Positions 16,967 through 24,720 of a stretch of 64,000 nt of DNA are shown here, one piece after another. The stretch lies in assembly GCF_007751035.1 (NCBI RefSeq), contig NZ_CP036433.1, forward strand, positions 4,383,001 to 4,447,000, in the 5' to 3' direction. Both the position numbers and the translations under genes were made by a program. Within the stretch, counting starts at the first letter, position 1. Each line of letters starts with the position of its first letter. The notes beneath the pieces were generated by a model. The model did not search any database, was not told where the DNA came from, and saw only the letters and a list, made by a program, of their open reading frames with translations. Source of the stretch: Lignipirellula cremea. GTDB taxonomy: Bacteria; Planctomycetota; Planctomycetia; Pirellulales; Pirellulaceae.

Positions 16967-17599
16967 TCAAACGACGCCTTTTTTCACGGCGAGTACGGCT
17001 GCCTGCGTGCGGTCGTTGACATCGAGCTTTCGCAGAATATTCTGCACGTGCTCTTTGACCGTTTCTATGCTGATGCCCAGCGAACGACCGATTTCCCGGT
17101 TGCTGAGACCAAGCGCCACATGCCGCAGAACCTGGGTTTCGCGGTTGGTCAGCGGAATATCTTCTTCCGATTCGGAACGACGCTTGCTCATGGTCGTTCG
17201 CACGCGCTCCAGCAGGCTATCGCTGGCGGGGCCTTCGCCTTCAGCCGCCCTGCGGATGGCGTTGACGAGCGACTGCTTCGACGAACCCTTCAGCAAGTAA
17301 TCATTGGCGCCCAGCGCCACACTTCTTGCGACGTAAGTCGGGTTATCGTATGTGGATAGCATCAGGACGCGGGTGTCGGGCGATTCGGCCCGAATCTTTT
17401 CTAACGCGCTCAGGCCGTCGGTATTCGGCATGCGGATATCCATCAGCAGCACGTCAGGCTGTAATTTCAGGGTTTCTGCGAGTGCTTCGTCTCCATCGGA
17501 TGCTTCGCCAACAATTTCAATGATGGTGTCGCGAAACAGGCACTCTAAACCACTACGAACGACCTCGTGATCGTCAGCAACTAAAACCTTTATGGTCAT
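16967..17599 (-). CDS. NarL/FixJ-type response regulator
   Basis: A 210-residue transcription regulator: receiver domain (1-120) with acidic D9/D10, phosphoacceptor D54 in LLMDIRMP and K104, and a LuxR-type helix-turn-helix (about 148-205) with LTNRETQVLRHVALGLSNRE. It should bind DNA as a dimer when phosphorylated. AAGGAG 7 bases before ATG 17599 supports the start. No histidine kinase is adjacent, so it is an orphan regulator. It is divergent from the NtrC-type regulator at 18213, with a hairpin-rich intergenic region between. Confidence 0.9.
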   Translation of the reverse strand: MTIKVLVADDHEVVRSGLECLFRDTIIEIVGEASDGDEALAETLKLQPDVLLMDIRMPNTDGLSALEKIRAESPDTRVLMLSTYDNPTYVARSVALGANDYLLKGSSKQSLVNAIRRAAEGEGPASDSLLERVRTTMSKRRSESEEDIPLTNRETQVLRHVALGLSNREIGRSLGISIETVKEHVQNILRKLDVNDRTQAAVLAVKKGVV

Positions 17600-17639
17600 G
17601 CCAAGGCTCCTTAAAAAACAGTGATTTTTGATAACGTAT

Positions 17640-17775
17640 GCGATACGCAGCGGGGCGTTGACCGAACGGAGTCAACGGGATCGAGGCGAGCACGGCCTCA
17701 GCTTCGCTTAAAAAGCGATGACAATTGACGGTGACATTCGCACGGAATGTCTCAAGGCGTTTACAAACGCCTGCG
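17640..17775. promoter_or_regulatory. Cluster of short hairpins between two regulators
   Basis: Three perfect stems occur in series: CGTTGAC/GTCAACG (17656-17677), TCGCTT/AAGCGA (17704-17718) and AGGCGTTT/AAACGCCT (17755-17772). They lie between the divergent genes at 17599 and 18213. They may be operators or parts of a structured RNA; I cannot tell which. The remaining 17776-18212 holds nothing I can support. Confidence 0.4.
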
Positions 17776-18212
17776 AGTCACTGTCCCAAAAAAAACTCGT
17801 TGTTAGAACAGGCCATTATATCCAGTCAGGAAAATTCCTACCCCTGAAAGGTCGGCGATTGCGCTAACCCGTAGTTCGGGGGTAGAGGGGCCATGAGCTT
17901 TCTTCAGGGTAGCAACGCCACCCACCAATATGACCAGGGGAATGATAACAAAATGCCCGGACCAGGCAAGAGGGAAGGATTAGCCCCCTGCCCTTTTGAG
18001 TGGAACACCCCCCGCCAGGAGCCCGGCCACTCCGGTTGTGAGGAACAGAAGGCTAAGTTTTTCCGCAAATGACACGGCGCTTTGACGCGACGTCGAGGGT
18101 GACCTAAATAACCTTGTGGACAAAACTAAACAGGCTGGAACGGAAGGCCTTTGTTTGCGCGAAGCCTGCGCCGGAGGTGCATCAGGGCGACGCGGCAACC
18201 TGCAGAGAACCG

Positions 18213-19580
18213 ATGGTATCTACTAAAGGCCGTTTACTGCTCGTCGACGACGATCGACATCTGCTGGAATCCATGGCCTCCTGGCTGCGTGATCTGCAGT
18301 ACGAGGTCGATACGGCGGCCGGACTGCATGCCGCGATTCCCCTGGTCGATGGTCGTAAATACGACCTTGTGCTCGCGGACATTCGCCTGGGCGATGGCGA
18401 TGGGTTCGACTTGCTGGCCCATTGTCGCCAGAAAGGCGCGGATCCGCCCGTCATTCTGATGAGCGGTTACGCCACCGTCGACACCGGCGTCGAAGCGATC
18501 CGCCAGGGAGCGTTCGATCTGCTCACCAAGCCGTTGATCGACGACGAGCTGGAGCTGGCCATCGATCGCGCCCTGTCGCAGCAGAAGGTGCTGGAAGAGA
18601 ACCAGCATCTCAAGGCGCAACTGGATCAGCGCTACGGCATCGATAGCGTGATCGGCAGCGATCATCGGATGCAGAAGATTTACGACATCATCCACAGCGT
18701 CGCCGACACCCGGGCCACCGTGCTGATCACCGGCGAAAGCGGCACCGGCAAGTCCCTGATCGCCCGGGCGTTGCATCGCCTGAGCGACCGCCGGGACAAG
18801 TCGTTTGTCGAAGTCGCCTGTGGAGCTTTGCCGGAGAATCTCCTGGAAAGCGAACTCTTCGGCCATGTGGCGGGCGCATTCACCGGCGCCGTGAGCGACA
18901 AAACAGGTAAATTCCTGCAGGCGGACCGGGGAACGATCTTTCTCGATGAAATCGGCACTGCGTCGCCAGGCATGCAGGTCAAACTGCTGCGGGTGCTGCA
19001 GGAGTTTGAGTTTGAGCCAGTCGGCGGCTCGCAAACCCATCGGGTTAATTCCCGCGTGGTGCTGGCGACGAATGAGAACCTGACCCGCGCCGTCGCGGAG
19101 GGCCGCTTTCGCCAGGATCTTTACTACCGGATCCACGTGATTACGGTCGAAGTTCCGCCGCTGCGTGAACGGTTGTCGGATATTCCCACCCTGGCGACGC
19201 ATTTTCTGAAACGGATCTGCGACGATACGGGCAAGAAGGTCGAAGGGTTCTCGGACTCGGCCTTGGCCGCCATGCAACGCCACAACTGGCCCGGTAATGT
19301 TCGCGAACTGCAGAACGTGGTGGAACGCGCCGTGCTGCTGGGGAAAAACTCAGAAGTCGGCGTCGATGACCTGCCCACCGAATGGGGCGCGCTCGAACAT
19401 GTGGGCGCCTCTTCGATCGGCAGCCGCACGCTGAAGGAAGCGCTGGAAGGTCCAGAGCGACAGATCATTCGCGACGCCCTGGAGCGTTACGAATGGAATC
19501 GCAACGTCACCGCCGACATCCTGGGCATCAACCGCACGACCCTTTATAAAAAGATGAAGCGTCTGGGCCTCGAGAAATAA
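18213..19580 (+). CDS. NtrC-type sigma-54-dependent response regulator
   Basis: A 455-residue activator of sigma-54 RNA polymerase. Receiver domain with D12/D13, phosphoacceptor D56 and K106; AAA+ domain with Walker A GESGTGKS (about 174-181), the sigma-54-contacting GAFTGA loop (221-226) and Walker B FLDE (243-246); C-terminal Fis-type helix-turn-helix ending NRTTLYKKMKRLGLEK. All key motifs are intact. ATG 18213 is chosen because the receiver fold starts just after it; the frame open to 18114 is not supported. No cognate kinase is adjacent. A sigma-54 promoter candidate lies at 21470-21488, a plausible target. Confidence 0.92.
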   Translation: MVSTKGRLLLVDDDRHLLESMASWLRDLQYEVDTAAGLHAAIPLVDGRKYDLVLADIRLGDGDGFDLLAHCRQKGADPPVILMSGYATVDTGVEAIRQGAFDLLTKPLIDDELELAIDRALSQQKVLEENQHLKAQLDQRYGIDSVIGSDHRMQKIYDIIHSVADTRATVLITGESGTGKSLIARALHRLSDRRDKSFVEVACGALPENLLESELFGHVAGAFTGAVSDKTGKFLQADRGTIFLDEIGTASPGMQVKLLRVLQEFEFEPVGGSQTHRVNSRVVLATNENLTRAVAEGRFRQDLYYRIHVITVEVPPLRERLSDIPTLATHFLKRICDDTGKKVEGFSDSALAAMQRHNWPGNVRELQNVVERAVLLGKNSEVGVDDLPTEWGALEHVGASSIGSRTLKEALEGPERQIIRDALERYEWNRNVTADILGINRTTLYKKMKRLGLEK

Positions 19581-19754
19581 CGCCCAGATAATGCGGAGTT
19601 CATGCAGCGGGAATCCCGGCAGGAACGGCCCGGTTGCTAACCCAACCGCTGGCGGCGTGGGCGAACGTCGCCCCCTGGAGATTGGCAAAGCCTACTCGCT
19701 TTCGAATCCTTTCCTTTGCATACTGAAGGCGGAAGGAACTTCGTTGAGGCTTGC

Positions 19755-21278
19755 ATGTCGGATTCGTCTACACCTACGGAACGCTCCGCGCCGCCCGACC
19801 CGGATTTGTCGGGACGCAGGATCGGCGATTATCAGTTGCTGCGCCGTCTGGGACGCGGCGGCATGGCCGACGTTTACCTGGCCGAGCAGGTCTCGCTGGC
19901 CCGCAAGGTCGCTCTGAAAGTGCTGCGGCACAGCCTGTCGACCGATGCGACCTACGTGCATCGCTTTGCAAAGGAAGCCCGGGCCGCCGCCAATCTGATT
20001 CATCCGGGAATCGTGCAGATTTACGAAGTCGGCTGCATCGACGGCGTGCATTTCATTGCGCAGGAGTACGTGCCGGGGTTGAACCTGGGCGAACTGCTTA
20101 AACGCCGCGGCCCGCTGGCCGCCAGTCAGGCCGTGAGTATTTTGCGGCAAGTGGGAGCCGCCCTGCATCGGGCGGCCGAACAGGGGGTGGTGCATCGGGA
20201 TATCAAGCCGGACAACATCATGCTGTCGCAGCAGGGAGAGGTAAAAGTCGCCGACTTTGGCCTGGCCCGCGTCGCCGACGATGTGAACCTGACCCAGGCC
20301 GGCGTGACAATGGGGACGCCCCTTTATATGAGTCCTGAGCAGGTCGAAGGCAAGCAGCTGGACGCCCGCAGCGATCTCTATTCGTTTGGCGTCACCTGCT
20401 ACCACTTGCTGGCGGGAAGGCCGCCGTTTGAAGGCGACACGGCGCTGGCCGTTGCGGTGCAGCACCTGCACAACGAAGCGGCCCGGCTGGACTCCTTTCG
20501 TCCCGACTTGCCCGACGATTTGTGTCGCATCGTCCATCGCCTGATGACCCGGTCCATCAAGAGCCGCTACCAGTCCGCCTCGGAAATGCTCCGCGAACTG
20601 CGTGCCCTGCCGATCGCCGAAGAAGAATCGGAATGGCCCAATCTGCTCGACGGCTGGAACTCCAGCGAACTGCAGGCCGTCGCGGACGCCAGGCGCCAGG
20701 CGACGCAGCAACTGGCCGCGGTAATGAAGACAAATCCCAACCGGCGTTCCGCCATGGTCGCCGGCGGTCTGGCTCTGGCGGCGGCGATTGCGGCCGTGGT
20801 GATCGGCGGCCTGATTGCCTGGTCCCAGCGGCCCGACTCGTTGCTGGCGTATGACCCTAACGATCTGCCCAAAATTGAGCGTCAAAGTAATGCGCAGGAC
20901 CAGTACTATTACGCCACGCTGATCGGCACCGAGGAAGCACTGCTGAGCGTGTCCCGCTTTTTTCCCCCGGAAGCCAACGCGACCAATCAGTATTACAGCC
21001 GGCGAGCGACCCAGCGTCTGGCGGAGCTCTATCTGCAGGCCGATCAAACGACGGCCGCCCTGCAGTCGTTCCAGGTGCTGGCCCGGCTCTCCGCCACCGA
21101 AGAAGAGTTTCGCGCCTATGGCCTGGCCGGCGAGGCGGTGGTTTACGATCGCCTGGGCAAGGCGGAACAGGTCAACGAAAAACTGCGCGAGCTGATCCCC
21201 CTGCGGCGACGGCTGGAAGGGCCCATGTCGGACGAAGTGACCCGGCTGATTACCAAATACAACGGTTCTAGCAGTTGA
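19755..21278 (+). CDS. Membrane-anchored Ser/Thr protein kinase
   Basis: A 507-residue Hanks-type kinase. The kinase domain (about 24-285) has the glycine loop LGRGGMADV (32-40), ATP-binding K55, the catalytic loop HRDIKPDN (147-154), DFG (167-169) and an MSPEQVEG activation-segment end. A single membrane helix at about 333-356 is followed by a 150-residue extracytoplasmic domain with TPR-like helices (YLQADQTTAALQSFQVLARL). Substrates are unknown. ATG 19755 has GAGG 6 bases upstream. It lies 174 bases after the NtrC-type regulator, so the two may share a transcript. Confidence 0.92.
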   Translation: MSDSSTPTERSAPPDPDLSGRRIGDYQLLRRLGRGGMADVYLAEQVSLARKVALKVLRHSLSTDATYVHRFAKEARAAANLIHPGIVQIYEVGCIDGVHFIAQEYVPGLNLGELLKRRGPLAASQAVSILRQVGAALHRAAEQGVVHRDIKPDNIMLSQQGEVKVADFGLARVADDVNLTQAGVTMGTPLYMSPEQVEGKQLDARSDLYSFGVTCYHLLAGRPPFEGDTALAVAVQHLHNEAARLDSFRPDLPDDLCRIVHRLMTRSIKSRYQSASEMLRELRALPIAEEESEWPNLLDGWNSSELQAVADARRQATQQLAAVMKTNPNRRSAMVAGGLALAAAIAAVVIGGLIAWSQRPDSLLAYDPNDLPKIERQSNAQDQYYYATLIGTEEALLSVSRFFPPEANATNQYYSRRATQRLAELYLQADQTTAALQSFQVLARLSATEEEFRAYGLAGEAVVYDRLGKAEQVNEKLRELIPLRRRLEGPMSDEVTRLITKYNGSSS

Positions 21279-21469
21279 GCGGGCGGCGTTCAGGGGTTGA
21301 TCGAAAAAGCTACGCGCCTGTTTGAAAATCTTGCCTCAGGAATGCGGCCTGCGTTGCGTCCAGGGCGGAATCCGGGCGACGAAAGCAACGCTGGCGTTTT
21401 ACGCAAGTGTTTGACGTCATTCCGTTTGCTTCTTCTTTACAGGGACGATTCGGGCCGGTCCCTCGCGCT

Positions 21470-21488
21470 TTGGCATTCGGTTTGCTTT
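21470..21488 (+). promoter_or_regulatory. Candidate sigma-54 promoter
   Basis: TTGGCATTCGGTTTGCTTT places GG (21472-21473) and GC (21484-21485) exactly 10 bases apart and matches the TTGGCA...TTTGC consensus well. It is about 100 bases upstream of the small gene at 21586. An NtrC-type activator is encoded at 18213. The remaining bases of 21279-21585 show nothing else. Confidence 0.5.
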
Positions 21489-21585
21489 AATCCTCAGGCA
21501 ATCAACCGGCTCTATGTGGATCCCTGCGAGCCAGAGAGTGAACCTTGTCGCCGCCAAAACCCTCTCTATCCGTATGGAGGACATC

Positions 21586-21834
21586 ATGATTAATCTCGCC
21601 CCTTTCCGTCCGACCGTTGCCCCGGCCCGTTGTGATGATCCTTATCTGGCCGGCCTGCTCTGCTCGCTGGAAGAAGAAATTTCCGCCCAGCAGGGCGTTG
21701 CCGTTGACGCCATGCAGCACGACTTGCGGGGCAGTCGCGGGGCCGATGACCTGCCGACTCTTCGCGGATCCGACGATCAATTCGTGATCATGTGGACCGC
21801 CGAACAAGCCCGCAATCCCTGGGCCGGGCGCTAG
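21586..21834 (+). CDS. Small protein, unknown
   Basis: An 82-residue soluble, acidic protein with two cysteines (about 16 and 26). ATG 21586 is preceded by GGAGG at an ideal 5-base spacing, one of the best ribosome binding sites in the window, so the gene is probably real although I do not recognise the family. It is the first gene after the sigma-54 promoter candidate at 21470-21488. No signal peptide or membrane helix. Confidence 0.6.
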   Translation: MINLAPFRPTVAPARCDDPYLAGLLCSLEEEISAQQGVAVDAMQHDLRGSRGADDLPTLRGSDDQFVIMWTAEQARNPWAGR

Positions 21835-22039
21835 TCGCCACATGATTTCCGGCACTGGACCTGGGCGCCAGTTCTTTTGACATCGCCGAGCCATCCGTTC
21901 GGCGTCAGCGGGGAAGAGTGACCTGTGGCCAAGTTCACTACATCTCGCCCTGGGCTGCCGGGAACGGTATTCTGGACGCAGGCCGCGCAGCACCGCGGGG
22001 TCCCAGAAAGCTTCCTTAAAAAACGGTCGAAGTGGTTTT

Positions 22040-22267
22040 ATGCCTCGTGAACAGATCGTGGTGGGAGATTGCCCTCAGTGCCAGGGCGTGAACACCACTT
22101 GCAAGTACAACCGCTTTGAAAGCGAAGATCTGCGCATTGATTCCTGGGAGCACAAATGCCCTGACTGCGGTCATCGCTTGACAACCGCCTATCGGTCCGA
22201 CGATGAGGACACCCTCGTCGAGGAACCGATGCTTTGCCCCTATTGTGGCCGACGAGCCGGCGTTTAA
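22040..22267 (+). CDS. Small zinc-ribbon protein
   Basis: A 75-residue protein with three CxxC pairs: CPQC at 11-14, CPDC at about 40-43 and CPYC at about 67-70, the layout of a small zinc ribbon. It could bind nucleic acid or act as an adaptor; nothing shows a specific role. The Shine-Dalgarno is weak. The 205-base gap before it holds nothing clear. The product has many acidic residues between the second and third pairs. Confidence 0.6.
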   Translation: MPREQIVVGDCPQCQGVNTTCKYNRFESEDLRIDSWEHKCPDCGHRLTTAYRSDDEDTLVEEPMLCPYCGRRAGV

Positions 22268-22406
22268 TCGCCGTTTCTATCCCTCGTCGCTATTGCCGCC
22301 GCTTGCTCTCTGCCTGTGAGGCGTGCATTGTCTGAATGCCGTTTCTTCCTGCCTGCGCCGGAAGCAAGGTTTCCCTGTTCCGGACAGGCTTTCCGGAACC
22401 GGGCTG

Positions 22407-22595
22407 CTACTTGGACTTGTCGCGCAGCTGCGGTTCGATCTTTTGGCCGCAATGTCTGCAGTCAACGGCGTGCGGACTGACGGCGTAATGGCAGTGGGGA
22501 CAATTGGGTCGTCGACTCGCCCAGACCAGGTAAGCGCCCAGTAGTAGCAGCGGGGTGATACAGATAAAAAGGCCGATGAGTTCTTGGATTCCCAT
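22407..22595 (-). CDS. Membrane-anchored zinc-ribbon microprotein
   Basis: A 62-residue protein with one membrane helix (about 5-25) followed by a zinc-ribbon CPHC...CRHC (about 32-52) and a basic tail. This matches the general pattern of small membrane zinc ribbons of unknown role. It is convergent with the other zinc-ribbon gene. There is no strong Shine-Dalgarno, but the motif pattern makes chance unlikely. Confidence 0.55.
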   Translation of the reverse strand: MGIQELIGLFICITPLLLLGAYLVWASRRPNCPHCHYAVSPHAVDCRHCGQKIEPQLRDKSK

Positions 22596-23016
22596 GTGTA
22601 ACTTTCGTCCCCGAACCGAAAACTTCGCGTGTGGGAATTCCCAGGCAGTACGGCCGCGCTCCCGGCGGCGCTGACTTCAACCCTGGTACTCCCGCCGATA
22701 TCCATGAACCTATCATTGTCTGGCAAACCTCGGCTCCCGACCACCACCCCCCTTTGGAAGCATGTGGTTTGAGTTGGTGGACGCGATTGCTGGCCCGGAT
22801 CGCAGCTGACGGCGATGATCGCGGTTCTCTTCCTGGTAGCGGAAAGGCCAGTCGCAACGAAGGCGCGCAATGCGCCAGGAGGTGCGGAATTCTTCATCCT
22901 GGGCACTGGCGAGGACGAAAAAGGAAGACAGATTGAGGTCTGTCGCGGAAGGATCGCACCTCAATGCTCGAGCCGAAGGAGCGGCCGCCCTGCCCCTCTT
23001 GCCCTCGGTTCGCAAC
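22596..23016. other. Intergenic region between divergent genes
   Basis: About 420 bases without a supported gene. Open frames here are shadows with no conserved features, and I see no repeat or hairpin of note. Confidence 0.45.
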
Positions 23017-23511
23017 ATGAGATTCGATCAACAAGCCGCCGCCGTTATTCTGGTCGTCGATAGTGACGCACTCACTCTCACCGGCGTCGCTGCCGCCCTG
23101 CACCTGACCGGCCACGAAGCGCATTGCGCCCGCGATCGCGAAGCCGCCCTGAAAGCCGTTCGCGCACTGTCGCTGGATCTGGTGATTTGCGATATCGACA
23201 TGCCGGGTCCCAGCGGCAAGGAACTTTGGCGCGAGCTGCAGTCGGAGCCGAACATGGCGGATACGCCCGTCATCTTTGTGACGGACTCGCCCAGCCAGGA
23301 CATCATGGAACGGGTGCAGATTGCTGGCGGTTGCTACTATCTGCGCAAGCCGTACGATCCCAACGTTCTGCTGGAACTGGTCGACAAAGCGCTCTGGCTG
23401 CCCCACCTGGTCAGCAACCATCTGTCCAGTGGTCGTATGGAATCGATACCCCGACCGAATGCAATTGCTGCTGCAAATCGCGACGCCGCAACGCTGCCTG
23501 TTAACTCCTAG
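23017..23511 (+). CDS. CheY-like receiver-only response regulator
   Basis: A 164-residue protein with a receiver domain (about 8-125): acidic D15/D17, phosphoacceptor Asp in LVICDIDMPGPSG and the conserved Lys-Pro in YYLRKPYDP. A 40-residue low-complexity tail follows; there is no output domain, so it should act by protein-protein contact. ATG 23017 is chosen because the receiver begins right after it. No kinase is adjacent. The frame is open further upstream but without recognisable sequence. Confidence 0.85.
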   Translation: MRFDQQAAAVILVVDSDALTLTGVAAALHLTGHEAHCARDREAALKAVRALSLDLVICDIDMPGPSGKELWRELQSEPNMADTPVIFVTDSPSQDIMERVQIAGGCYYLRKPYDPNVLLELVDKALWLPHLVSNHLSSGRMESIPRPNAIAAANRDAATLPVNS

Positions 23512-23676
23512 AAACGCGCTCGCTCGCGTGTCCCGTGGTGATTACGCTCGTCCGAGTCGACAGGCGTTCCTCCAGGGGATACGGTAGAGAAGACATTCGC
23601 AGGTCGCCGGTTCGGGCCGACCCCTGGCCTGAATTGCCGGGCCAGGTTCACGAGCGTTTTCTCCAAAGGGGATTGG

Positions 23677-24720
23677 ATGGAACTGCCGCGATATGATCGG
23701 CGGGAAACCTACGCGTGGAACTACGAACAGGCGCCCGCCCCCCTCAGCCTTGCCGAGGCGCCGGTCCCGGGCGACTGGCGTTTCTGTGGGCGTCCGGCTG
23801 CTTCCCCTTTGGGCGTCGCGGCCGGTCCGTTGTTGAACGGCCGCTGGTGTTTGTATTACGCCAGCCTGGGGTTTGATGTGCTGACCTATAAAACGGTGCG
23901 CAGCGTCGCTCGGGATTGCTACCCGTTGCCGAACCTGGCGCCTGTTGCGGTGCAGCAGATGCACGGTGGTGAGACGAGCGTGGCGACCTCTGCCGCCATG
24001 CATGGCAGCTGGGCCGTGTCATTTGGCATGCCGTCGCAAGCGCCCGAAGTTTGGCGTCGGGATGTGGAACAGACGAAAGCCCAGTTACCACCGGGCAAGC
24101 TGCTTTCTGTTTCCGTCGTCGGCTCGATCGAGCCGGGCTGGTCGCGGGAGCAACTGGCCGATGACTACGCCCAGTGCGCCGCCTGGGCGGCAGAGAGCGG
24201 GGCCGATCTGGTGGAGATGAACTTCTCTTGTCCCAATGTGTCCACCTGTGACGGCCAGCTTTACCAGCAGCCGGCTGACGCCGCCCTGGTTGCAGCCGCC
24301 GCCCGGAAGCGAGTCGGCTCCTTGCCGCTGGCGGTCAAAATTGGCCATCTGCCCGACAAGGCGACTGCCGCCGCTTTGCTGCGCGCGCTGGCCCCGCACA
24401 TTGACGCCGTAGCGATGACCAACAGCCTGGCGTCAACGGTTCGCGACGGCGACCGGCTGCTCTTTAACGGTCAGCCCCGCGGCATTTGCGGCGACGCCAT
24501 TCGCACCGCGTCGCTGGCGCAGGTCGCCTGCTGCCGGCGGATCTGCGACGAGGATGCTCTGGCGCTGCAGTTGATTGGGGTAGGCGGGGCGTCGACTGCC
24601 GAGCATGTCCAGGCTTACCTGCAGGCTGGGGCCAACGCCGTCCACCTGGCAACGGCCGCGATGGTCGAACCGCAGGTCGCCCTGCACATTCGCAAACAAT
24701 GGCAAGCGAGCGCAGGGTAG
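23677..24720 (+). CDS. Dihydroorotate dehydrogenase-like flavoprotein
   Basis: A 347-residue TIM-barrel flavoenzyme related to dihydroorotate dehydrogenases. LGVAAGPLLNG near 48, the substrate-loop NFSCPNVS near 188 (its Cys corresponds to the catalytic Cys of class 1 enzymes) and a C-terminal IGVGGASTAEHV phosphate-binding segment are visible. It would oxidise dihydroorotate to orotate in pyrimidine synthesis if it is the real PyrD, but it is longer than class 1A enzymes and no other pyr genes are near, so another dihydropyrimidine-type substrate is possible. The start is ATG 23677, shortly after AAAGGGGA. Cytoplasmic. Confidence 0.75.
   Translation: MELPRYDRRETYAWNYEQAPAPLSLAEAPVPGDWRFCGRPAASPLGVAAGPLLNGRWCLYYASLGFDVLTYKTVRSVARDCYPLPNLAPVAVQQMHGGETSVATSAAMHGSWAVSFGMPSQAPEVWRRDVEQTKAQLPPGKLLSVSVVGSIEPGWSREQLADDYAQCAAWAAESGADLVEMNFSCPNVSTCDGQLYQQPADAALVAAAARKRVGSLPLAVKIGHLPDKATAAALLRALAPHIDAVAMTNSLASTVRDGDRLLFNGQPRGICGDAIRTASLAQVACCRRICDEDALALQLIGVGGASTAEHVQAYLQAGANAVHLATAAMVEPQVALHIRKQWQASAG

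Follow-up and report, generated by a model that had tools for sequence, protein, structure and literature searches.

Promoters recognized by sigma-54 (RpoN) are of the -24/-12 type, in which a GG and a GC lie ten bases apart within TGGCAY and TTGCW boxes, and glnA, the glutamine synthetase gene, is a sigma-54 target in many bacteria. In the literature that we found, the targets in planctomycetes are mostly predictions. For many classes, Planctomycetia among them, a 2025 study predicted sigma-54 regulons in which genes for chaperones and proteases were enriched (PMC12316311). The window analyzed here is a 64-kb stretch, positions 4383001-4447000 of the single 9,565,229-bp contig of Lignipirellula cremea, and contains a single exact match to TGGCAY-N5-TTGCW, the sequence TGGCATTCGGTTTGCT (Table 1). 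A sequence-only reading of this DNA had drawn attention to the site for its GG/GC pair with a ten-base gap and good flanks, and this description is borne out, with GG at 21472-21473, GC at 21484-21485 and exactly ten bases between them. When up to two mismatches are allowed there are 49 matches in the window against 51 expected, so that only the exact match stands out, and a scan with an approximate sigma-54 matrix, built from a consensus, agrees in giving TGGCATTCGGTTTGCT 16.2 of 18.8 bits and the window's next best site 12.8. The site is like known -24/-12 promoters in its GG-N10-GC core, in both boxes, in its distance to a gene and in the presence of RpoN and activators in the genome; at bases 6 and 7 it has T and T in place of the C and G of the consensus, but nothing essential differs. 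It is intergenic and oriented toward an 82-aa open reading frame that starts 100 nt away, and by the standard -12 convention transcription is predicted to start near 21497, 12 nt past the C of the GC. A site-like stretch at 21415-21430, derived from a direct repeat, was considered as a second promoter and rejected, its first box having no GG.

Table 1. Features of the sigma-54 promoter region in the L. cremea window (window coordinates).
Feature	Position	Strand	Remarks
Divergent LuxR/NarL-type response regulator	16967..17599	-	Conserved neighbor of the NtrC-type gene
Sigma-70-like promoter of the NtrC-type gene	18082..18110	+	TTGACG-N17-TAAATA; counterparts before orthologues
NtrC-type response regulator	18213..19580 (start near 18213)	+	Receiver, sigma-54 activation domain with GAFTGA, Fis-type HTH; PF00072, PF00158, PF25601, PF02954
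Ser/Thr protein kinase	19755..21278	+	Between the activator and the sigma-54 promoter
Tentative activator site, inverted pair GCCTGCGTTGC / GCAACGCTGGC	21347-21357, 21385-21395	.	102-150 nt before the predicted start
Sigma-54 (-24/-12) promoter, TGGCATTCGGTTTGCT	21471..21486	+	0 mismatches to TGGCAY-N5-TTGCW
Shine-Dalgarno sequence GGAGG	21576..21580	+	5 nt before ATG
82-aa ORF, lineage-specific	21586..21834	+	ATG at 21586; no family match
Zinc-ribbon-like 75-aa protein	22040..22267	+	Downstream of the 82-aa ORF; weak zinc-ribbon matches below cut-off

The genome as a whole contains 14 exact sites, compared with six matches to a reversed control pattern and about 28 expected by chance (extrapolated from a Markov mean of 0.185 per 64 kb), and looser boxes with gaps of 4-8 nt give 135 matches against 171 for controls. 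By count alone the exact sites do not exceed chance, and it is only their placement that supports function. Eleven of the 14, the window site counted, are intergenic. As controls we used 20 wrong-spacing sites, with identical boxes and a gap one or two bases shorter or longer, taken from 32 that were counted by hand among the 100 of the 135 matches listed (10 of 10 with one base fewer, 3 of 3 with one more, 4 of 4 with two more and 3 of 15 with two fewer); two of the 20 are identical in sequence and are possibly repeat copies. Genes around all 34 sites were called with one codon-based caller. Among the 13 other exact sites 10 are intergenic, as are 6 of the 20 controls (P = 0.013), and 8 of the 13 have a same-strand called gene no more than 350 nt downstream compared with none of the 20 (Fisher P = 9e-5), the 350-nt limit having been fixed after the distances were seen; with a limit of 130 nt the counts are 5 of 13 and 0 of 20. 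A Pfam scan of six of the eight downstream proteins (L021 and L027 were left out) matched five of them, to glutamine synthetase, CsbD-like, M42-type peptidase, SHD1 and acyl-transferase-like families. The glnA site (L032) is likewise an exact, intergenic TGGCAY-N5-TTGCW match oriented toward its gene, although that gene encodes a conserved enzyme and begins 328 nt past the predicted start, whereas the distance at the window site is 89 nt. From the placement of the 13 other sites relative to the controls, sigma-54 promoters of just this form appear to be in use in the genome, and the window site is to be counted among them. The comparison with wrong-spacing controls also gives a small set of L. 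cremea genes that are probably sigma-54 targets.

There is one rpoN gene in the genome (2.4e-62), its product has the DNA-binding domain, and the C-terminus, ARRTITKYRQ, is close to the RpoN box; 24 proteins match PF00158, 15 of them strongly. Support for a functional promoter comes from the match to the consensus, from the recognizable box of RpoN and from the promoter-like placement of the exact motif elsewhere, and we consider it likely that the site is a genuine sigma-54 promoter, opened by an activator and expressing a lineage-specific 82-aa protein. It is well formed and of ordinary type, and it probably works in front of an orphan gene. The RpoN form of RNA polymerase would bind 21471-21486 as a closed complex, the complex would open on remodeling by an ATP-driven activator that reaches it by looping from an upstream site, and a transcript from about 21497, which perhaps extends into the zinc-ribbon gene, would give the 82-aa protein from its strong ribosome site. 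Three points here are inferred, namely use of the promoter, the position of the transcription start and the identity, among about 15 activators, of the one in control.

An ideal ribosome binding site had also been claimed for the 82-aa gene, which lies 100 bases beyond the promoter, and the GGAGG at the expected distance from its ATG agrees with this. The frame scores 0.25 bits per codon, which is the best of the six frames and toward the low end of 33 training genes (0.15-0.62), and its total codon score of 20 is below the caller's threshold of 25, so the ORF was missed by the caller. The protein matches no family in Pfam or NCBIfam, and its predicted structure is uninformative (mean pLDDT 48.9). 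Among 60 relatives it was found in its own genome only, in one copy; no convincing homologue was seen in 241 family genomes, none in plasmids and none in GTDB contigs, where short exact peptide patterns of limited sensitivity were used. Two weak matches in the family genomes (E = 0.006 and 0.008) resemble parts of other genes or non-coding frames and lie at loci lacking a sigma-54 site of at least 11 bits, and a 33-base DNA match in one genome is antisense to an apparent repeat protein; all three were rejected. The gene is probably young and specific to its lineage. If this is correct, a clean sigma-54 promoter in front of such a gene would illustrate how planctomycetes connect new genes to an old activator system. 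The finding is modest, since the promoter is of an ordinary type and the link to an activator is unproven.

An activator with an intact GAFTGA had been reported two genes upstream, and we find it there with the kinase gene in between. Its product has the receiver, the PF00158 domain with GAFTGA and the HTH_8 that define the NtrC type, and in this it is like the NtrC, AtoC and ZraR regulators, with all domains above the Pfam cut-offs; it differs in falling below the curated cut-off of all 25 NCBIfam models listed and in having a divergent LuxR-type regulator as its conserved partner. Orthologues with E-values of 1e-120 or better are present in 32 of 37 genomes including its own, with 56-71% identity outside its own, and judged by these matches the regulator is conserved across the order. 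The divergent LuxR-type gene is recognized at 13 of 19 orthologue loci, and an apparent succinyl-CoA synthetase beta gene, read without a family search, precedes or follows the regulator at five of the 19. We noticed no histidine kinase alongside this recurrent pair of divergent LuxR- and NtrC-type regulators (16967-17599 and 18213-19580). The regulator has a sigma-70-like promoter of its own, and TTGAC-N16-20-TARATA occurs upstream of it at 12 of the 19 orthologue loci. The pattern GTGACGTAGATAW has 22 matches in 60 genomes compared with two for its reversed control, and 12 of the 19 loci listed (of the 22) have it before the regulator gene. When the DNA before the regulator was searched for dyads and k-mers, this conserved sigma-70-like promoter emerged and no activator site. 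The end of the spacer, GTGACG, is conserved before the -10 box in TTGAC-N17-TAGATA across the order (window 18082-18110; L102-L120 and L142-L160), which suggests that it may be an extra recognition element.

Among the approximately 15 activators that could drive the sigma-54 site, the neighboring NtrC-type regulator is more likely than any other one, though it is not established in this role. A local circuit, in which it would activate the promoter from a position near the inverted repeat at 21347-21395, is a reasonable hypothesis rather than a finding, and one that we regard as possible but rather doubtful; it is a special case of the likely promoter described above, so the two probabilities overlap. 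The window site is the only one of the 14 exact sites with a strong activator gene within less than 5 kb (2.8 kb between listed positions), and 0.13 pairs as close as this are expected per genome by chance, but the adjacency is a single event and was found post hoc. The search for an inverted repeat upstream, which the sequence-only reading had suggested, did turn up an 11-nt pair at a typical enhancer distance from the promoter, and the only exact GCAACGCNGGC matches in the window are the two members of this pair; about 0.2 pairs of this kind are expected by chance (a rough hand estimate), and the pair, with a half-site chosen after seeing it, is not significant. No activator motif common to the upstream regions of the sigma-54 promoter and of the regulator itself was found among 20 regions.

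Comparison with relatives also argues against a local circuit. None of the 19 orthologue loci, two of them shortened by contig ends, has a sigma-54 site of at least 13.5 bits within 1.5 kb, and the one match of 13.4 bits is inside the regulator gene itself. Of 149 family genomes, 115 (the window's own among them) have a kinase related to the one in the window, and in all 20 other genomes examined (stretches of 6.6-11.5 kb) the kinase gene is elsewhere than beside the regulator, one of these loci having a weak receiver-domain match only. A conserved circuit of activator and local target was therefore seen at none of the 19 activator loci and none of the 20 kinase loci, and as neither such a sigma-54 site near orthologues nor a pairing of kinase and regulator was seen elsewhere, only this one of the lineages examined has the arrangement. 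The earlier proposal thus divides into a promoter, which stands with the consensus, RpoN and the genome-wide placement of the exact motif in its favor, and a circuit, which was drawn from adjacency alone and whose arrangement is not conserved. A somewhat less probable account, which we put forward tentatively, is that an old NtrC-type regulator, conserved throughout the order and with its own conserved sigma-70-like promoter, gained a neighboring sigma-54 promoter and a new small gene in one lineage; were it true, a conserved signaling input would drive a protein found nowhere else.

We think it unlikely that the match is due to chance, in which case GG and GC would coincide in intergenic DNA and another promoter would serve the small ORF, supposing it is real. 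In favor of chance, an exact match is present in 35 of 200 simulated windows (first-order Markov; mean 0.185), and three of the 14 genomic sites are inside genes. The motif alone is thus not rare, and what is notable at the window site is its intergenic position and correct orientation, with a strong ribosome site 100 nt further on; other copies of the motif in the genome are also placed like promoters. A simple sigma-70 scan of the plus strand from 17600 to 23700 found no promoter, which is weak evidence of absence since the same scan missed the conserved promoter at 18082. The window has no Rfam match and no tRNA, and neither the leader nor the DNA that follows the 82-aa gene nor a hairpin before the promoter folds any better than shuffled sequences do.

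The preferred reading, a sigma-54 promoter expressing the 82-aa protein, leaves room for the zinc-ribbon gene, which is possibly co-transcribed with the 82-aa gene and has a terminator-like hairpin at its end (z = -2.0 versus shuffles); relatives of the 75-aa protein are present in 17 of 60 genomes including its own, in varying neighborhoods. That the promoter instead serves the zinc-ribbon gene or a short RNA, with the 82-aa ORF untranslated, is quite improbable, for although the ORF has no relatives and a low codon score and the zinc-ribbon protein is conserved, the ORF has a strong ribosome site and the best-scoring of the six frames, and at the 16 loci that carry a zinc-ribbon homologue no sigma-54 site within 1.5 kb reaches 13.5 bits. 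Finally, tiny ORFs of 57 and 37 aa, each with a ribosome site, follow two of the other exact sites (L022 and L027, near position 1501), and small proteins may therefore be frequent among the sigma-54 targets of this genome.
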